Source: Porphyra umbilicalis
Taxonomy: Eukaryota > Rhodophyta > Bangiophyceae > Bangiales > Bangiaceae
NCBI GenBank assembly: GCA_002049455.2
Contig: KV919059.1
Location: forward strand, 33,173-97,172
Length of the DNA stretch: 64,000 bases
Direction: 5' to 3'
Below, in pieces: positions 17,260 to 59,191 of the stretch. The notes beneath the pieces are model-generated. The model worked only from the letters and a program-made list of their open reading frames with translations. It did not search any database and was not told the DNA's origin. The first letter of the stretch is position 1. Every line of letters begins with the position of its first letter. The position numbers and the translations under genes are program-made.

Positions 17260-18240
17260 CATGCGACTCTCAGGGGGGTGTGTGGGCGGAGTATTATGGC
17301 CGTTCGACCTGAGATATCAGGTTGACACGTGCCCGGTATATACCGACACATTTTTCTTGTAGGGCGGTGCTCTACTAGGCGGTCCACCCTGGCGGAACTG
17401 CCGCGACTGAGGAGAACTAACCGACACATCCCTTCGCGGCCAACTCTGCGTCCAACTTTCCACCCTGCCGAGCCGTATTGGCGAGCACGGCTCGAAGCTG
17501 CTCCGGCGGCCCGACGACGCCGACGCTGTCGTGAGATGCCCTGACAAGGACCCACGGGTGGTTGGTGGGCAGCCGCCCCAGAACTGCCTCATGGTGGCGG
17601 TGTTCAGAAGTAGCCGAACGCGTCGCTTTGTTGGGCGCCCCGCTCGGCACGCAGCCATCAGGGCGGCGGAGGCAGCGGCGAGACGCCGCCGCCTGCGCCC
17701 AAGGGCGCAACGCCGCTCGCTTCCGGGGGCAGCGGTGGCGCCGCCTCGTGGACCGCCCACACGAACAAACACGGAACCCATCTACAGTACGCCCACTTGA
17801 GGTAGCGTGTCAGAAGGGGTAGGCCCGGCAGGCTGTCGGTGCCCACGCCACCAAGCTTCGCCAAAAATAGCACGCCCAACCCGGCCGGCGCGTGCGTGGC
17901 GACAGGCATCAGCTTAAGAAAGAGCCAGGCTGACTGCCTATCCGGCTCCTGCCGGACCCATTTAAGCGCCTCGGGTCCCAACAATCTCCACGAGCCGAAA
18001 AGTGCCGACGGCATGCGGCGCAGCGATCGCGCACGACGCAAGAAGCGGCGCCGACGACGCGCCGTCAGCACTGCCGCGCAGCAGAAGCGCGTCGCGTGCG
18101 CTCGCCCTTTCAGAGGGGTTCTTTGCAAACAGATTGGCGGCGTCCGAAACGGAGGTGACAGCAGCCGGGCCACCGGCCTTCGGCGGCGGCGGCGGCGGCG
18201 CCTCTACTGCCGAGACCTGGCGGCCGTGGCTACTGTGTAG
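17260..18240 (-). pseudogene. RLE-type retroelement, second degenerate copy
   Basis: The minus-strand translation near 17870 contains VATHAPAG and LAKLGGVGTDSLPGL, matching VATHALAG and LAKPGGVGADGMPGL of the copy at 21140-25300. Farther on, near 17540, HPWVLVRASHDSVGVVGPP matches HPSVLVRAFHDDVVVGRPP. The block that should hold RT motif A is missing. Motif B is decayed to SGAPNKA, and the second Asp of the catalytic pair is Ser. This copy is dead and carries an internal deletion. Confidence 0.7.
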
Positions 18241-20545: not shown

Positions 20546-21092
20546 TACGCATCTCGACTGCTGATGTGAGGCTCTGAAATGGGGCCAGCGAGAACTGGTT
20601 CCAGCCTCCAGCTTTTGTGTTTCTGACAGTCGTGCCGAGGGCACCGGATGGCGACAGAACCAGGGCAGTCGCCTCTCCGGCCAATCTTTCTTTGTTCCCC
20701 GCCCCGCTCGCGATGCCAGGAGAGTTGCGATCGTATCGAATGTCGCGATCGGATTTTATCCTAGATCGTTGCAAATGCTCAATCCGATTTGACTCGAGAT
20801 CTTCTCCAGAAATTCTCATCTATTCGATACTTGAGCTTTCGCTATTGTCATGAGCCCGGTATGCAATCATTATGTATTTCCATGGATTGTATCGGAGTAC
20901 TGGCGAAATCTCAGATTCCACCAATCCCTGGTCGCTACGCGATATGACCGACGTCACAGGCCTCGCAGACGCGGCCCTCTCGCCAAACTCCGGATCGTTT
21001 CGCTCCCCCACCACCTTTCGTCATCCCGCGCGACCGGAGGGTACTCTGCATCCCCCCGCACGTACCTCTCCCGTCAAAAGGAGAGAAGAGTC

Positions 21093-21135
21093 TAGCACCA
21101 GGTGGTTTCGATCCACCGCCGTCTGGGTTATGGGC
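21093..21135 (-). pseudogene. 3' half of an initiator tRNA-Met (truncated)
   Basis: These 43 bases match the anticodon-loop-to-3'-end half of the tRNA at 25319-25402 with a single difference. The B-box (GGATCGAAACC) is present; the 5' half with the A-box is missing. A T4 run (A's at 21076-21079) lies at about the same distance downstream as the T5 terminator of the intact gene. It abuts the 3' end of the retroelement at 21140-25300. Confidence 0.9.
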
Positions 21136-21139
21136 TCTG

Positions 21140-24100
21140 TTTATCGGAATCTAAGAGACGACACATCCCCTGACCATCTCCCGCGGGAGTTACCCCCTAC
21201 TCTCCAATTCCAGCCAAATGTGGGCTTACACCCTCCACAGTAGCACCCCCCCCCCACTGGGGGTGCCTGCAAAGCAAAGCAGCGGGCGTAACGGTCGGCC
21301 ACGCCCCGCGCGTGTGATCGCCAGATGGCGACCGACACGTCACGCAGGAGCCCAGCGCGAACCGCCGCCAGCGTGGGGCCCCGAAACGCCTCTGTCAGCC
21401 AACGGTCGGTGGCAGGTGCCACGCGTCCGTAAGCCTCCCACATGAGTGGTGTAAACTCGTGTGGGGTGGCGGTCGCGGGCAGAGACGGGGAGTACTTGGC
21501 CGATTTGGCCGCCTCCCGCGCCTCGCCCGTGACCACCCGCAGCGGCGCGTCCGCCACCGGCGCCACCACTCGGGCGGCGAACGGCCACGCGACGGAGACG
21601 TCGGCCTAGGTGACGACGCCCGACGAGCCGTTCTTCGCCCGAAGGTCGGGGCGGAGCACGCTGTGGGCGTCGTCACGACCGGTCTCCACCACCACGTCCT
21701 CCAAGCCCGGGGCGCGGCGCAGCGCCGCCGCCACCAACCCCACGATCGGGTGGTGGAGGCGGGCGCGCCGTAGCTCCTGCTGCGGGCAGGTAAAGAGGAG
21801 GTGGCGGCCGTCCGAGTCAACGTCGGCGCCGCAGCGGTAGCGCGGCGCCGGCGGCGTGGAACGCGGCGCCACGTCAAGCCACAGGCGCACCGCCGCCCGC
21901 ATGGCGGCGCCCGAAAAATGGCGACCCCCCCCACACCCGACGCGGGCAGCGCAGAGAGCCAGAGCGAGGCACGGTGGCCCCGGCACGCGGCCAGGCCCGC
22001 CCAAGCCCACAACGACAGCTCCGCATACTGCCACGCCCGCCGTGCGGCGTGCGCGGGTACAGAGAGGTCGCGCTACACGCGCTGCTTCAGGCAGTCGCCC
22101 GTCCCCTCCACGATCACCCGCCACAATGGCACCGAGTGTAGCGCTGGGCCGTGTTGGCCATTGGCCGGATGCAGGGTCGCTCCAGGGCCACACTCGAGGT
22201 CGGGGGGGGGGGGGGTGGCAGAGCATCGCCCGAGCGCCGGGGCGGCGGCCACAGCAGCCCCGTGTTGGGCGCTACGGCGTGCGCGGTGGCGGCGTCGCGC
22301 AGGTCGAGCAGGTCGCCACACAGGGCGGCCACGGCTGGGGGGACCGGCGGTGGGGCCGCCGCCGCCGCCGACGCCGCCGCAAGGGGGCGAGGCTGTTCGC
22401 TGTCGGCCGGCGGCGGCGGCGGCGCGGGTATCGAACGCAGCCTTCGTATGGCCGAGTGACCCGCGGTCGCGCTGCCTCGGCGGGGGGGGCTCAAATCGGG
22501 CAGAATCGCCCCCCACCGCCGGCGGAACCGACACATTCGGAATGACGGCGGCGGTGGGCGTGGCCGACACCCCAGTTGCCCACGGGAGCGCCGCGCCGGC
22601 GGTAGCGCCCCGCGCTGGCGGGCCACGAGACACGGGCGGGGCCAGCGCAGCAGGAGGGGCGACCCGCGCAGCTCGAGGCCGGCACGGGGCAGCAGGGCAG
22701 TGAGGCAGTGGGGCGGCTGGCGCCACCCGGCGCGGAGGACTGCCTTCGTCCCGGCCAGAACGAAAAGAGGGGCAAGGACCACCGGCAAGACAGCCCCCCG
22801 CCTCCCTACCCGCACCAGGCAGCCGCAGCAGCGCGTCCGCGGACGCTCGGAGGGTGGGGGAGTAGGACCGCCCGGCCCGCAGCGCGTCCACCCACGAGGC
22901 GAGGGCGGCCGCAGGCGCAACAGCAGTCCGCCTCCCGATTCCTAGCCCCCCCATCGCGACGGGGAGGGCAGCACGCGCGACATCCGCCGCCTGCGTGGCG
23001 GCGTCATCACGCGCGTCACACAGAAGGACACAGAGCGCGCGCTGCGCCCCGCGGTCGACGGCGCCGGCGAGCTTGGCGCCTTCGGCCAGCGGCAGGTCGC
23101 GTAGCAAATAGATGGCCTGCGGCTTCGCGCACAAGCGCAGCAGAAGCAACTGCACATGCAGCGCGTCTGGCGGCAAGGCCGCGATGGCGTCGCACAGGGC
23201 CACCTGCTCGGTAGCGAGCCCGTCGACGGCCGCCGCCAAATAGGCTGGGGTGCCCAGGGGCACCGAGAACTGTGTGAGGCCCTCTGCGTGCCACTGGGCG
23301 GTCCACCTGGGTGGTGCCCCCCCCCCCGCCGGCGACCACCCCACGCACTTGGGTGGCTCCAGCACCGCGTCCGCCTCCCCCTCCAGCCGTGCGGCGCCGT
23401 CCAGCACGCGCGCAGCGCGCCCGGCGGCCGTCCGACGACCACGTCGTCGTGGAACGCCCGCACGAGCACCGACGGGTGCTCGACGCGGATCCGCTCCAGC
23501 AGTTGCCACATGGCGGCCGCGTGCAGTAGCGGGCCAAGCGGATCGCCCTGCTGGGCGCCCCGCTAGGCGTGCAGCCACCAGCGCGGCGGCGTTGTAGGGA
23601 ACACACACGCGGCCGCGGCTGCGGGCACAGCGCCGCGCGCCCCCGGCTGTGGCGGTGGCTCGGCAGCATCCGCCGCCCACCCGAATACACAGAGACCCTC
23701 CCCCCCGTACATTCAGGTAAGGTACGGTGTGAGGAGGGAGAGGGAGCGGTGGAGCACCGCGGCCGCCGCAGACCGATAAACAAGGTTAAAGGCATTTCTG
23801 AAGTCTAGCTGCAGGACCGCGTGGTCGGGGTGTTGGGCAAGGTGCGCTGCCAACTCGTGGAGAATTCGCTCACACGCGTTGGCGACGCCCACACCCAGCT
23901 GCACTGGGGCCAGCAGGTCCGCCGCAGCGGCACGCGCTGTCCCCGCCAGGGCCGACGCGGCAAGCTTGCGCAGGGCCTTCGGCATGCCAATAGGCCGGAG
24001 GCCCGGCATCCCGTCCGCGCCCACGCCGCCAGGCTTGGCCAGCAGCAGAAGGTCTGCGCCGGCCAGCGCGTGCGTTGCGACGGCGGGCACGCGCGTCGTC

Positions 24101-25300
24101 GCCGCGGCGCTGGTGAGCAGCACGCCGACGCTGAACAGAGCGTCACGGCCAGCCTCCCCCGGCGCCCACAGGTGCTCCATACCTTCGAGCCGACGGCCAA
24201 GCTGTGCGCGCTTGGCCGTCAGGCGGCGGCGGCACAGGTCGGCCGCCATCGCCGCGGCCGCCTCCGCCGACAGCTGGCGGTGGCGGACAGGCCCCAGCAC
24301 GGCGGGGCTCCACGAGGACACGCCGTCCAGCAGCGTGAGCCCCGCCGCCGCCGGCAGCCCCCGCACTGCCGACGCAAACGCTGCCGCCGCGGACACCTCG
24401 AGGGTGACCGCGGCGGTCGACCCGAAGCGGTCCAAGTCGACGAGACGGTCGACGTGGACCCCCGTCAAGTCGGCCACGAGGCCGCGCAGGCAGTGCGCGC
24501 GCGCCTCACGGCCGACCCCGGACACCAACACCGTCGTGAGGGTGATGGGGGTGGGCGGGTCCCCACCCCGCCCCCCGCCACCAGCACGCAAAGCAACCGC
24601 CGCCGACACTCGCGCGGCCGCCGCCGCGGCCGCCCCAGCCTCGGTGGCCGCCGCCGGCGGCACCCCACCAGCCGCCAAGACGCGCCGCCCGACAGGCGCC
24701 GCCCCCCCCCGTCCGCCGTCGCCGCCCCGCCTGCCGCCGCGCCGCCCGCCGTCGACGCGTTGGCGGTCGGCCGGCGGCGGCCACGCCGGACGTCAGTGGT
24801 CCAGCCGCCGCCGTCGGCCACTCTACCACGTGGCACCCCCCTCCCCTCAGGGGAGGCAGAAAACACAGGGGCCCCGGCCAGCCCAGCCACAGCACCGCCA
24901 GCACCAACAGACACCGCCGCCGGTGTCGGGGGGAGGGGGGAAGAAGACCCCCCAGGTCGGGGGGCGGGGGGAACGCGATCCCCCCCCGCGGCGGAGAGGA
25001 CGGCAGTGTCCCCCACCGGTGGCGGCGGCAGGACACCCGCCGCCGCCGACGAAGACGACGGCGGCGCTAATCGCAACGCCGCGCAATCATTGGCCCGTAT
25101 TAGGCGAACGAGCGAATCAAAGAGTCTGATTCGCTCGTCGCTAATTCGGACCCCGATCGCGACGCCGACGATCGCAACGACACCGCGCGCCGCCGCCTCA
25201 AACGTCGCCCGTTCCACCTCCCCCGCACCTCCCCCCGCAATCCCGCGCGACAGGGGGGCGCCCCGCACCCCCCCGCACCCTGCCACACGCACCTGGCCGA
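21140..25300 (-). mobile_element. non-LTR retrotransposon with RLE-type endonuclease, degenerate
   Basis: Minus-strand frames give a reverse transcriptase in order: LAKPGGVGADG and RPIGM (about 24045-24000); motif A LQLDFRNAFN (about 23810); motif B RGAQQGDPLGPLL (about 23555); and motif C with its catalytic pair, AFHDDVVV (about 23445). Farther on are a possible zinc site (CGAD, then HLLFTCP, about 21800) and a restriction-like endonuclease signature: RPD near 21650, then Asp 14 positions on, then K-Y and FTPLMWEAYG. This RPD-x-D arrangement is that of R2-like elements. An in-frame TAG at 21606-21608 splits the endonuclease, and frame changes occur around 23700 and 22900-22300, so it is dead as it stands. 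The Ala/Pro-rich region 24600-25300 is probably the 5' part of the element. Confidence 0.75.
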
Positions 25301-25301
25301 C

Positions 25302-25306
25302 AAAAA
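25302..25306 (-). terminator. RNA polymerase III terminator (T5)
   Basis: A run of five T on the minus strand starts 13 bases past the 3' end of the tRNA gene, the usual RNA polymerase III stop. Confidence 0.75.
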
Positions 25307-25318
25307 TGAGACAGCTTG

Positions 25319-25402
25319 TAGCACCAGGTGGTTTCGATCCACCGCCCTCTGGGTTATGGGCCCAGCGCGCTTTAGCGAATTGAACCACTGCGCTATGGTG
25401 CT
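25319..25402 (-). tRNA. initiator tRNA-Met (CAU) with a 12-nt D-loop insertion
   Basis: The minus strand folds as a full cloverleaf: acceptor AGCACCA/TGGTGCT, D-stem GCGC/GCGC, anticodon stem CTGGG/CCCAG around CCCATAA, T-stem GGTGG/CCACC around ATCGAAA. Initiator marks are all present: an A1:U72 pair, three G:C pairs in the anticodon stem, and A54 and A60 in the T-loop. The gene is 84 nt rather than 72. The excess lies in the D-loop, which is 19 nt (AGTGGTTCAATTCGCTAAA); removing TTCAATTCGCTA leaves AGTGGAA, a normal initiator D-loop. This is probably an intron at a non-canonical site. A-box (TAGCGCAGTGG) and B-box (GGATCGAAACC) are intact. Confidence 0.93.
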
Positions 25403-25904: not shown

Positions 25905-26966
25905 TCACCCCTCCCCGTCACTGACCGAAGGTAAAGGTAGTGCCAATGGAGGTACGTACACAGTATTGGCGTTGGTCGGACACGTCGCCCATGGGTTTTC
26001 TGCAAGGTACTGCTGGTGGTACAGCTCCGCATTGTAAAATGGGTACACCGCTGCGTCGGCGACGGCGCTGACCACCGCATCGCCTTCCACGCCACCGGGG
26101 GGGCGCGAGCGACGGCGACCGTGGCCGCTGCCGCCCTCTCCGCTCGACGTGGACACGGCCACGGCCGCCTGTGACGTGTCGCCTTCTGGTGACGCCCGTG
26201 CCTCCCCTTGCTGCTTGGTCACTGGTGCCGACGCCGCCGCTGCCGCCGCCGCCGCCGCCTCCTGCCGCTTCCGCAGTAGCGCGTCAAAATGTGCCAGACG
26301 CTCCCCGGCCGCCACCCGCTGGACGGCACCTACACAAAACACAACCGACCGATACTGCACGCCTGTGTCCCCCCCTTGCCGGTTGACCGTCGTCGGGTCG
26401 TGCGAGGCGAGCCACACATCGACGGCCGCGGCGTAGGGTAACACATTCGGATCAATGACGACCTTGACGACTTCGGCAAAGCCCGCTTCGCCGGCGCAAA
26501 CCGCGCGGTAGGAGGGGTTGACGACATCGTCGTCACCCCCCTGAAATCCCACGGCGGTTGTGACAACCCCGGGGGTGCCCCAAAAGGTGCGCTCGAGGGA
26601 CCAAAAACAGCCCCCTCCAAAGTAGGCAATTTCATAGCCGCGTGCGAGGTAGTGGGCATCTGCGTGGATGGGCGAGCCAAGCACCCGGTGGGTCTCCAAC
26701 TTCAGAGTTGGGAAAAGCGGGGGGGGTGGGGAAAGCGCCGAAAAGAACTGCAGGCGGTCAAGCCGCAGTACGCTTGCGTCCAGGGTGAGTGGTCGGGGGC
26801 ACACACGGGTCGGTCGCACTCGGCCGCGGTCTCAGCAGGCGTCCAATCCACACAACAACGCATGCAAAAAACCATTAAAAAACTGCGTAGAACGTACCAC
26901 AGGCATGGGCTCTGGCTGCGACAGCATCCACCGTGGAGCGCCCTTGAGTGCATCTAGCGCGCCCAT
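25905..26966 (-). CDS. msrA: peptide methionine-S-sulfoxide reductase MsrA, two exons
   Basis: It reduces methionine-S-sulfoxide in proteins back to methionine. Model: exon 1 26966-26898, intron 26897-26700 (GTACGT...AAG), exon 2 26699-25905; 287 residues. The join gives PMPVLETHRVLGS, which matches the N-terminal block of long E. coli-type MsrA. Exon 2 carries the active site FGGGCFW, then NPSYRAVCAG, SHDPTTVNRQGGDTGVQYRS and the C-terminal YHQQYLAENP. One resolving Cys is kept after NPWAT; the second, at the usual LPP motif, is Tyr. About 60 Ala/Gly/Ser/Arg-rich residues are inserted before the C-terminal block. An earlier in-frame ATG at 27335 would add 123 residues, perhaps a targeting sequence, but their composition is not convincing. 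It is head-to-head with glycerol kinase. Confidence 0.88.
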
Positions 26967-57387: not shown

Positions 57388-59191
57388 CTCTCGAGGGGGT
57401 GGCCCCCGGTCTGGGTGACCCCGCAGTGGCACCGGCGACGCGTGGGGGGGGGGGGGGGGCACCGTGCGTGCGGCGGGTGGGGGGGGGGGGGGTGCGGTGC
57501 GCGGTCGTACCGCGAGCGGCCGCGCAGCGCCGCGCCGCGCCGCGCGCCGCCGCCGCCAGACCGCCACCGCGGGCGCGCGCGTAGGGAATGCCGCGAGGCA
57601 GCGGCGCCGCGTCTGGCTCGCCGGAGGGTCGGGCGGCCAAACGCCGCGGCGGCGGCAGCGAAAAACGGCGCGTGGGGGGGGGGGGCGAGACGTGGGTCCC
57701 GTCTGCCGGGTCAAGTTGGGTGGAAAAACGGCGCGCTGGCGTATCCGCGGCATGCGATTGGCCGAGGGGCCAGTCAAGACATGTGACACGCTAATTCCCG
57801 AGGAGTGCTGGAGCTGAGCAGTACAGAACGTCTGTCTACCCTCGTCTGGACGAGTGTCCTGGTGCCGTGAAAACGGGACTGTCGCGGTGTCGTGCTGTCG
57901 CTTCTCCATATCCTCGGCTCAGTGCCGCCATGAGGCAGCTTCCGAGCATGAATTTCACTCAGAGAAGATCTGGGATCAATTAAAGTGGATCTGAGTGTGA
58001 CTGTCAGCTGATCGCTACACCTCGGTCTGCAACACAATTGGTCCATGCCAACCGAGAGACACGGGCGACTCGGTCGCTGGCCAGCACTGGGCAGCACTGG
58101 ACAGCGACCTCCACACGTCGTCGTACGTATTTGTTGTGTGACATGTGTTCGCTGTCACCGAGCGACGACACGGGCTGCCTTCCCCTTCTCGCTCCCACCA
58201 CCTGCATCGCAGTAGCGGATGTGGATAGTTTCTCCCGTACAGTTCTCCAGCGGGCCATAGTGCGGGAACGACACGTTACAGTAATGGAAGAACCCCAGGG
58301 ACGCTTTGGCGCCCACCGCGACAAGAGCGTGCTCCCGTGGAGGGCGCTCGCTGGGAATACAGCCGTTCTCGTAAAAACCTCGCACGCCAACTGTTGCACC
58401 ACTCTCACAAATAGGCCTCTGTGACCCCGTGAAGGCCGATTTGTAAGAGTTGTGTAACAGTTGGCGTGCGAGGTTTTTGAAAGAACGGCTGTAGTGGGGC
58501 AAGCGCGTCAACAAAGCCACACCCCGCATCGACCCGAACTTAATCCTCAGAGAGGAGCGCAAGCGGCAGTTGTCGGCAGCGACTACCGTAGTCCTCGTGA
58601 GCAAATATCTCCTCAAGACCGGCGGCCAACCTTTCGGGGGCAGATGGCCTGCCAGTGGTTGTCTGAGAACGGAATGCCACAACGGTCCCCCCTGTCGACG
58701 GCCAACCGGCAGTCTAGCGGGTAGTCACTGGCCCCGTCCAGGCAATTCAGGGTCGGGCACTGCCACTGAGCGCACGGCCGTGGGACCACTTGCTACATGA
58801 CGCGGGGTCGCACAGCAGCACCTCGAGGGTTGGCACCATTGGTGCTGCTGCTTGGTCGAGCCGCCGGCGGACGGATTAATCCTACGAAGTTCAAGCGGGC
58901 AAAATTTGCCTGACCGCTGTGACCCTGAGCGGAGGGGCCGTTGCCACGAAGTGCACGTGAAGAAAAAAGCACTGTGAAACACCGTCTGTCTGACCGCTGC
59001 GACAGGAAACAGAGAGAATAAAAGAATACCGAAACAGGAAAAAGCAAAGCCTGTAGCGAAACCGCCGACCCGCCGACGCACAGCGACTAATGCGTACACG
59101 CCCCGCGCAACGACCCGCCACCCCCCCCACGCCCATGCAAACGTACACGCCCAGCCGACGGCGTCCACAAAGACGCGGCTCCCCCCCCGCG
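57388..59191. other. intergenic between SERRATE and the kinase gene
   Basis: It holds the SERRATE promoter (GC-rich with G runs at 57448-57458, 57480-57491 and 57674-57684), then AT-richer sequence with the hairpin listed separately. No protein gene is recognised. Confidence 0.4.
58358..58493. repeat. long inverted repeat (foldback hairpin)
   Basis: Arm 1 is 58358-58419 and arm 2 is 58432-58493, about 62 bp each with some eight mismatches and a loop of about 12 bp. The core CCTCGCACGCCAACTGTT is perfect. It lies outside genes. It could be a foldback element, the head of a small RNA precursor, or a terminal hairpin. Confidence 0.9.

Follow-up and report, generated by a model that had tools for sequence, protein, structure and literature searches.

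An initiator tRNA-Met gene in the nucleus of the red alga Porphyra umbilicalis carries 12 nucleotides too many in its D-loop, and the question it raises is whether these are an intron, part of an enlarged mature tRNA, or the mark of a gene that is no longer used. Here we report the gene, its copies elsewhere in the genome, an exactly bounded block that is free to vary among them, an insert-free homologue, and genes for subunits of the splicing endonuclease. From comparison of these sequences we conclude, with a probability of about 0.9, that the 12 nt at 25372-25383 are an endonuclease/ligase-type intron at tRNA position 20/21 of a nuclear initiator tRNA-Met gene. Positions are those of the window, by which we mean the whole 64,000-nt stretch of DNA analysed (C299:33173-97172, where C299 is the label of the window's contig). 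The gene and its parts are as follows.

25319..25402, minus strand: initiator tRNA-Met(CAT) gene, 84 nt (from sequence, tRNA models and exons identical in four copies)
25384..25402, minus strand: 5' exon, 19 nt, ending AGTGGT, tRNA positions 1-20 (from copy comparison)
25372..25383, minus strand: predicted 12-nt intron TCAATTCGCTAA, tRNA position 20/21 (from copy comparison, the sole fitting register of 14)
25319..25371, minus strand: 3' exon, 53 nt, beginning AGCGC (from copy comparison)
25385..25395, minus strand: A box TAGCGCAGTGG, not interrupted by the insert (from sequence)
25330..25340, minus strand: B box GGATCGAAACC (from sequence)
25302..25306, minus strand: T5 run, likely Pol III terminator, 13-17 nt 3' of the gene (from sequence)

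An initiator tRNA gene with an enlarged D-loop

Read on the minus strand, the gene is AGCACCATAGCGCAGTGGT-TCAATTCGCTAA-AGCGCGCTGGGCCCATAACCCAGAGGGCGGTGGATCGAAACCACCTGGTGCTA, with hyphens at the predicted intron edges. The original prediction of a complete cloverleaf with initiator marks was confirmed by the sequence, by an Rfam match and by a model made from the genome itself. A full initiator cloverleaf can be read at 25319-25402 (-), with A1:U72, a D-stem GCGC/GCGC, an anticodon arm CTGGG-CCCATAA-CCCAG and a T-loop ATCGAAA that supplies A54 and A60; the gene has the nuclear initiator marks, namely the CAT anticodon together with the GGG:CCC anticodon stem, A1:U72 and A54/A60 that we take to distinguish eukaryotic initiator tRNAs. 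Rfam model RF00005 matches 25319-25394 at 32.2 bits, its sole match in the window at gathering scores, and a model from 11 tRNA sequences of the same genome, the window gene included, matches the whole of 25319-25402 at 77.4 bits; ARAGORN, run on the window, did not detect an initiator gene there. No CCA is encoded. The A and B boxes and the downstream T5 terminator are present, as had been claimed, and the inner promoter is intact because the A box ends just before the predicted cut. The D-loop measures 19 nt, and comparison with an insert-free copy on another contig (C180) upholds the 12-nt excess first noted.

Copies of the gene and the edges of the insert

A check for other initiator genes, suggested along with the original prediction, was run on the assembly (83.8 Mb, 665 contigs) and found five insert-bearing copies, the window gene among them, and the insert-free gene on C180. 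The count comes from one DNA search, with the gene plus 10 nt on each side as query, which gave eight matches (the window gene, C15, two full copies on C50, C488, C180 and two 3'-half pieces), and from one pattern search with 44 matches at up to 2 mismatches, 30 of which were examined. Most of the initiator gene copies found carry the 12-nt insert. Four are 84-nt genes with an insert of this length (C299, which is the window gene, C50a, C50b and C488); the copy on C15 has an 11-nt insert and has lost one anticodon-loop base, and because this leaves a six-base loop it is probably dead.

The exons are identical at 72 of 72 positions across C299, C50a, C50b and C488, and the inserts of the four differ (TCAATTCGCTAA in the window, TAATCACGCTTA, ACATCACTCTGA and ACATCACACTTC in the others). 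Variation thus affects 8 of the 12 insert columns versus none of the 72 exon columns (Fisher p = 1.1e-8, indicative only since the genes are related); it falls at gene positions 20, 21, 23, 24, 25, 27, 30 and 31, the other 76 being constant in these four intact insert-bearing genes. The intact-looking 72-nt gene on C180 departs from the spliced form of the insert-bearing genes by five differences, which are two acceptor pairs and one variable-loop base: the variable loop is AGGTC in the C180 type and AGGGC in the insert-bearing type, which also has the acceptor strand TGGTGCT.

These differences allow the edges of the insert to be placed. Fourteen registers were tried, each removing 12 nt from a start at gene positions 13 to 26. 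Register 20-31 (window 25383-25372, a cut between U20 and A21 in standard numbering) is the only one that yields one identical 72-nt product from the four genes, and the only one that restores the C180 D-arm GCGC-AGTGGTA-GCGC; what remains after removal is a tRNA of the standard 72 nt. The earlier claim that excision leaves an ordinary D-loop and a 72-nt tRNA is supported by this comparison, but its cut lay one base off and moves from TTCAATTCGCTA to TCAATTCGCTAA, since the earlier cut (register 19-30) gives two products, with D-loop AGTGGAA in three genes and AGTGGCA in one. Because the exons are identical, the block varies, and a single register leads both to one product and to the C180 D-arm, the 12-nt block is very probably an intron.

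The strongest competing account is that the insert-bearing genes are pseudogenes or silent and that the insert-free C180 gene makes all the initiator tRNA. Such a gene does exist, the C15 copy has lost an anticodon-loop base, two apparent 3'-half relics lie in the genome, and eukaryotic tRNA genes with a short insertion in the D- or T-arm are mostly single members of larger synonymous sets and are regarded as pseudogenes (PMC4090602). Dead copies would not, however, be expected to keep all 72 exon bases in four places while the insert and the flank common to C488 and C50b drift. This diverged downstream flank matches at 81% across 203 columns that take in the gene, and at 90% across 716 columns lying further down, yet the exons of the two are identical; in the other five of the six pairs among the four copies, similarity is confined to the gene and a margin of no more than about 15 bases, simple repeats aside. 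Gene conversion keeping the exons alike should, we reason, have equalised the 12 nt too, and a T4-T7 run begins 12-15 nt 3' of the gene in all four copies, closer than the T-run of C180 at +36. We regard wholesale silence of the insert-bearing genes as improbable. Retention of the 12 nt in the mature tRNA as an enlarged D-loop, with which the constant insert length in four copies would agree, has a slimmer chance still: 8 of the 12 positions vary, the C180 gene has the same D-arm and no insert, and we know of no 19-nt D-loop in nuclear tRNAs. An assembly or contamination artefact, conceivable in a draft of 665 contigs, is scarcely credible for a structure met at four loci whose inserts differ and whose flanks mostly do too.

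A candidate splice site and its proposed processing

The copies point to a short helix at the proposed splice site.

25386..25389, minus strand: AGTG, exon strand of a proposed 4-bp central helix (from copy comparison; absent from the minimum-free-energy fold of the window copy)
25374..25377, minus strand: CGCT, intron strand of the proposed 4-bp central helix (from copy comparison)

At the proposed site, the D-stem GCGC/GCGC is followed by exon AGTG opposite intron CGCT, CGCT, CTCT and CACT in C299, C50a, C488 and C50b, which gives 4, 4, 3 and 4 helix pairs, respectively. The three bases before the 3' D-strand are AAA, TAA, GAA and TCA; cleavage would fall between the second and third of them, in the manner of a relaxed hBH site. 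In the window copy the 3-nt bulge AAA directly follows CGCT. Within the insert, one of the four helix positions is variable, as against seven of the other eight. A random 4-mer fully pairs with AGTG in 3.2% of draws, a figure to be read with the copies being related and hence not independent tests. No inner helix h' was found at the proposed site, and it is for this reason that the motif is of the relaxed kind. To judge by sequence, an exact relaxed bulge-helix-bulge motif at the insert edges is probable.

Free-energy folding gave the AGTG/intron helix at the proposed place in the minimum-free-energy folds of two of the four copies, C50a and C50b, whose best folds displace the D-stem and leave the anticodon arm open. 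In the window copy these intron bases go into a rival hairpin, TAGCG/CGCTA. In C488, for which the folded sequence was one base out of register, the partner of AGTG is CACT, displaced by two bases in the 5' direction. A full cloverleaf with the proposed splice site appeared in none of the four insert-bearing copies by this method; the insert-free C180 gene folds as a cloverleaf. As for the bulge-helix-bulge fold that had been suggested as a check, the insert edges fit a relaxed site by sequence, with one helix pair fewer in C488, but the helix arises in only two of the four folds. In pair counts over six sequences, 97.7% of 44 cells pair versus 4.7 to 70.5% once the 3' partners are moved out of register; shuffles do no worse than the real alignment, and two-sided (compensatory) pair changes are absent from these counts. 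With no pair changing on both sides, we do not claim covariation as proof of the helix. Our claim of an intron is made from the comparison of genes and not from the fold.

We propose the following pathway. Transcription by Pol III would be directed by the A and B boxes, neither of which is interrupted. The D-stem of the precursor would run on into the short exon AGTG/intron CGCT helix, of the relaxed bulge-helix-bulge type hBH. A Sen2/Sen34 endonuclease would cleave 3' of AGTGGT and 5' of AGCGC, and joining of the exons by ligation would yield an ordinary 72-nt initiator tRNA with D-loop AGTGGTA for use in translation. The spliced product of the insert-bearing type would read AGTGGTAGCGC, with variable loop AGGGC. 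Candidate genes for the endonuclease, its catalytic subunits included, are present: PF01974 occurs at two places in the genome, in a Sen34-like frame on C104 (E 1.4e-16; best solved chain named Sen34, E 3.7e-16) and in a Sen2-like frame on C7 (E 2.0e-7; best solved chain named Sen2, E 2.5e-10), and the Sen54 N-domain (PF12928) on C25 (E 4.0e-11).

The original prediction had also held that an intron here would make the start of translation depend on unusual splicing. This claim is weakened, because with an insert-free, intact-looking initiator gene on C180 translation start need not depend wholly on splicing.

Other interrupted tRNA genes and known systems

The initiator family is not the only one in this genome with genes of unusual shape. 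A search of the genome with RF00005 scored 63 of 1261 candidates and gave at least 49 matches, the window gene not among them. Among the 49 listed, 25 lie on a plastid-like contig (C665, 185 kb), which carries 10 of the 11 phycobilisome-family matches, in keeping with a red alga, and whose allophycocyanin and phycocyanin match solved phycobilisome chains (E 8e-92 and 5e-93), the matched structure, 6kgx, being presumably from Porphyridium. Elsewhere, 21 of the 24 matches were read by eye, that is, all but those on C60, C10 and C77, and three looked enlarged in the D- or T-loop.

C432:10360-10452 (L059): read as Asn(GTT), labelled Met by ARAGORN; D-loop about 19 nt too long
C249:112041-112126 (L060): read as Arg(TCG), undecided by ARAGORN; D-loop about 13 nt too long
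C409:19569-19658 (L066): Cys(GCA) gene with about 17 extra bases in the T-loop

From their sequences, the interruptions of these Asn, Arg and Cys genes are probably ectopic introns; a simple script that tried registers found at most three of four helix pairs in the Asn and Arg genes. On C97, ARAGORN places the 15-nt insert of a Thr(TGT) gene at the anticodon loop. Among the genes read, those for Lys, Glu, Val, Ala and Gly and the Thr(CGT) gene on C14 look uninterrupted. A broader reading, to which we give roughly even odds, is that D- and T-loop introns are regular in the nuclear tRNA genes of a large red-algal genome outside the hot-spring lineage, and that most initiator tRNA would arise only after removal of a 12-nt 20/21 intron by an endonuclease recognising sites away from the anticodon; as an insert-free isogene with another acceptor stem coexists, two gene types with different processing could contribute to the supply. 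Should the intron reading of the insert-bearing genes hold, a splicing step would gate at least some of the initiator tRNA.

Our observations can be compared with four known systems. D-loop introns and permuted genes have been described in Cyanidioschyzon merolae, D- and T-arm introns in the Guillardia nucleomorph, and introns at 20/21 in archaea (PMC3978253, PMC4090602, PMC4033280), so that the earlier statement that C. merolae has tRNA introns in the D-loop and at other odd sites is accurate (PMC3978253). In that alga an intron lies at 14/15, position 20/21 is the permutation junction of a Leu gene, and bulge-helix-bulge motifs occur at the junctions (PMC3978253). The ectopic (non-37/38) introns and permuted genes of C. 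merolae resemble the present case in residing in a red-algal nucleus, in their D-loop disruptions, including 20/21, and in the accompanying homologues of Sen2, Sen34 and Sen54; for C. merolae itself, no Sen15 is recognised (PMC3978253). They differ in that the C. merolae initiator gene is permuted at 50/51 and listed without an intron in Table 1 of that account, whereas ours would be a linear gene with a D-loop intron, and in that 43 genes serve 42 anticodons there, while the initiator family here has insert-bearing and insert-free members (PMC3978253).

The nucleomorph of Guillardia theta, a red-algal relic, likewise has non-canonical insertions, of 3-24 nt in nine genes, including D and T arms, and their excision was confirmed by sequencing of RT-PCR products; the passages of the source that list the interrupted genes do not name initiator tRNA (PMC4090602). 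Many of these nucleomorph introns form no defined bulge-helix-bulge (PMC3978253), unlike the motif proposed here. Archaeal 20/21 introns share the position, and relaxed hBH motifs occur among them (PMC4090602), but they belong to archaeal genes and to an archaeal endonuclease architecture. Canonical eukaryotic introns at 37/38 would be served by the same enzyme family as the insert; they differ in position, and anticodon-intron pairing is absent here.

Since ectopic tRNA introns are already known, a linear initiator gene with a D-loop intron would be a further member of the class, and our search, among the titles and abstract openings listed, a scope outside which the main 2013 C. merolae paper (Soma et al.) falls, returned no report of one. 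Such genes are overlooked by a standard tRNA finder: ARAGORN detects the C180 gene but none of the five insert-bearing copies. tRNAscan-SE found tRNA-Ile in only two of eight red algae (PMC10496412), and hidden, disrupted genes could, we infer, be the cause. Comparing the four natural variants with the insert-free gene allows the edges of the intron to be placed on DNA evidence alone, and these genes provide ready substrates for studying how a eukaryotic endonuclease recognises sites outside the anticodon loop.

A LINE-like repeat beside the gene

A decayed LINE-like repeat lies downstream of the initiator gene on the same strand, from 21136 to about 25300, and ends in a piece of a second initiator gene.

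21093..21135 (C299:54265-54307), minus strand: initiator tRNA 3' half lacking its 5' counterpart and fused to the LINE-like repeat at the 3' end of the latter (from DNA search; a neighbour, outside the gene)
21093-25318 of the window, minus strand; C50:296840-298387 (L046); C15:74738-76335 (L040): LINE-like repeat with initiator gene parts

The 3' end of the repeat is fused to an initiator 3' half both in the window and on C50 (83% over 1227 columns), where the second such piece is C50:298340-298387. Its presumed 5' end follows the initiator gene in the window and on C15, and the downstream flank of the two is common to 93% over 1233 columns. We rejected a permuted or split gene as the origin of the two 3'-half copies, as four exact strings revealed no 5' half in the surrounding 3-kb loci; model R1 gives weak full-length fits (21.1 and 29.4 bits) without a credible 5' half. 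By sequence, both look like relics joined to the repeat. One reading frame of the repeat has a sub-threshold reverse-transcriptase match (E 0.052), and a solved-structure search with three repeat frames gave no match of reverse transcriptase type. These junctions suggest an element that may insert into initiator tRNA genes with target duplication; our literature search found no paper on a tRNA-gene-targeting retroelement of this type.

Other sequence features were also noted. Window positions 17503-17771 are a 69% copy of 23421-23691, and 21005-21092 are a 74% copy of the initiator gene's 3' end and its downstream flank; together they may be what is left of another, older copy of the element, lying behind the first in head-to-tail order. 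Of the 30 loci examined among the 44 pattern matches, 22 (L014-L023, L025-L027, L029-L035, L037 and L038) belong to a dispersed repeat, at least 130 bp long, that carries an initiator-like anticodon arm such as ACTGGGCCCATAACCCGG; in most of them AGGACGGCCGAAGCTTCGAATACCGCC follows the arm. Just upstream of the initiator gene is a peptide methionine sulfoxide reductase frame at 25905-26831 (-) (PF01625, E 1e-38), and an imperfect palindrome (82%) at 58358-58493 recurs on C50 (L041:1125-1261), at most 0.4 kb from an initiator gene copy.
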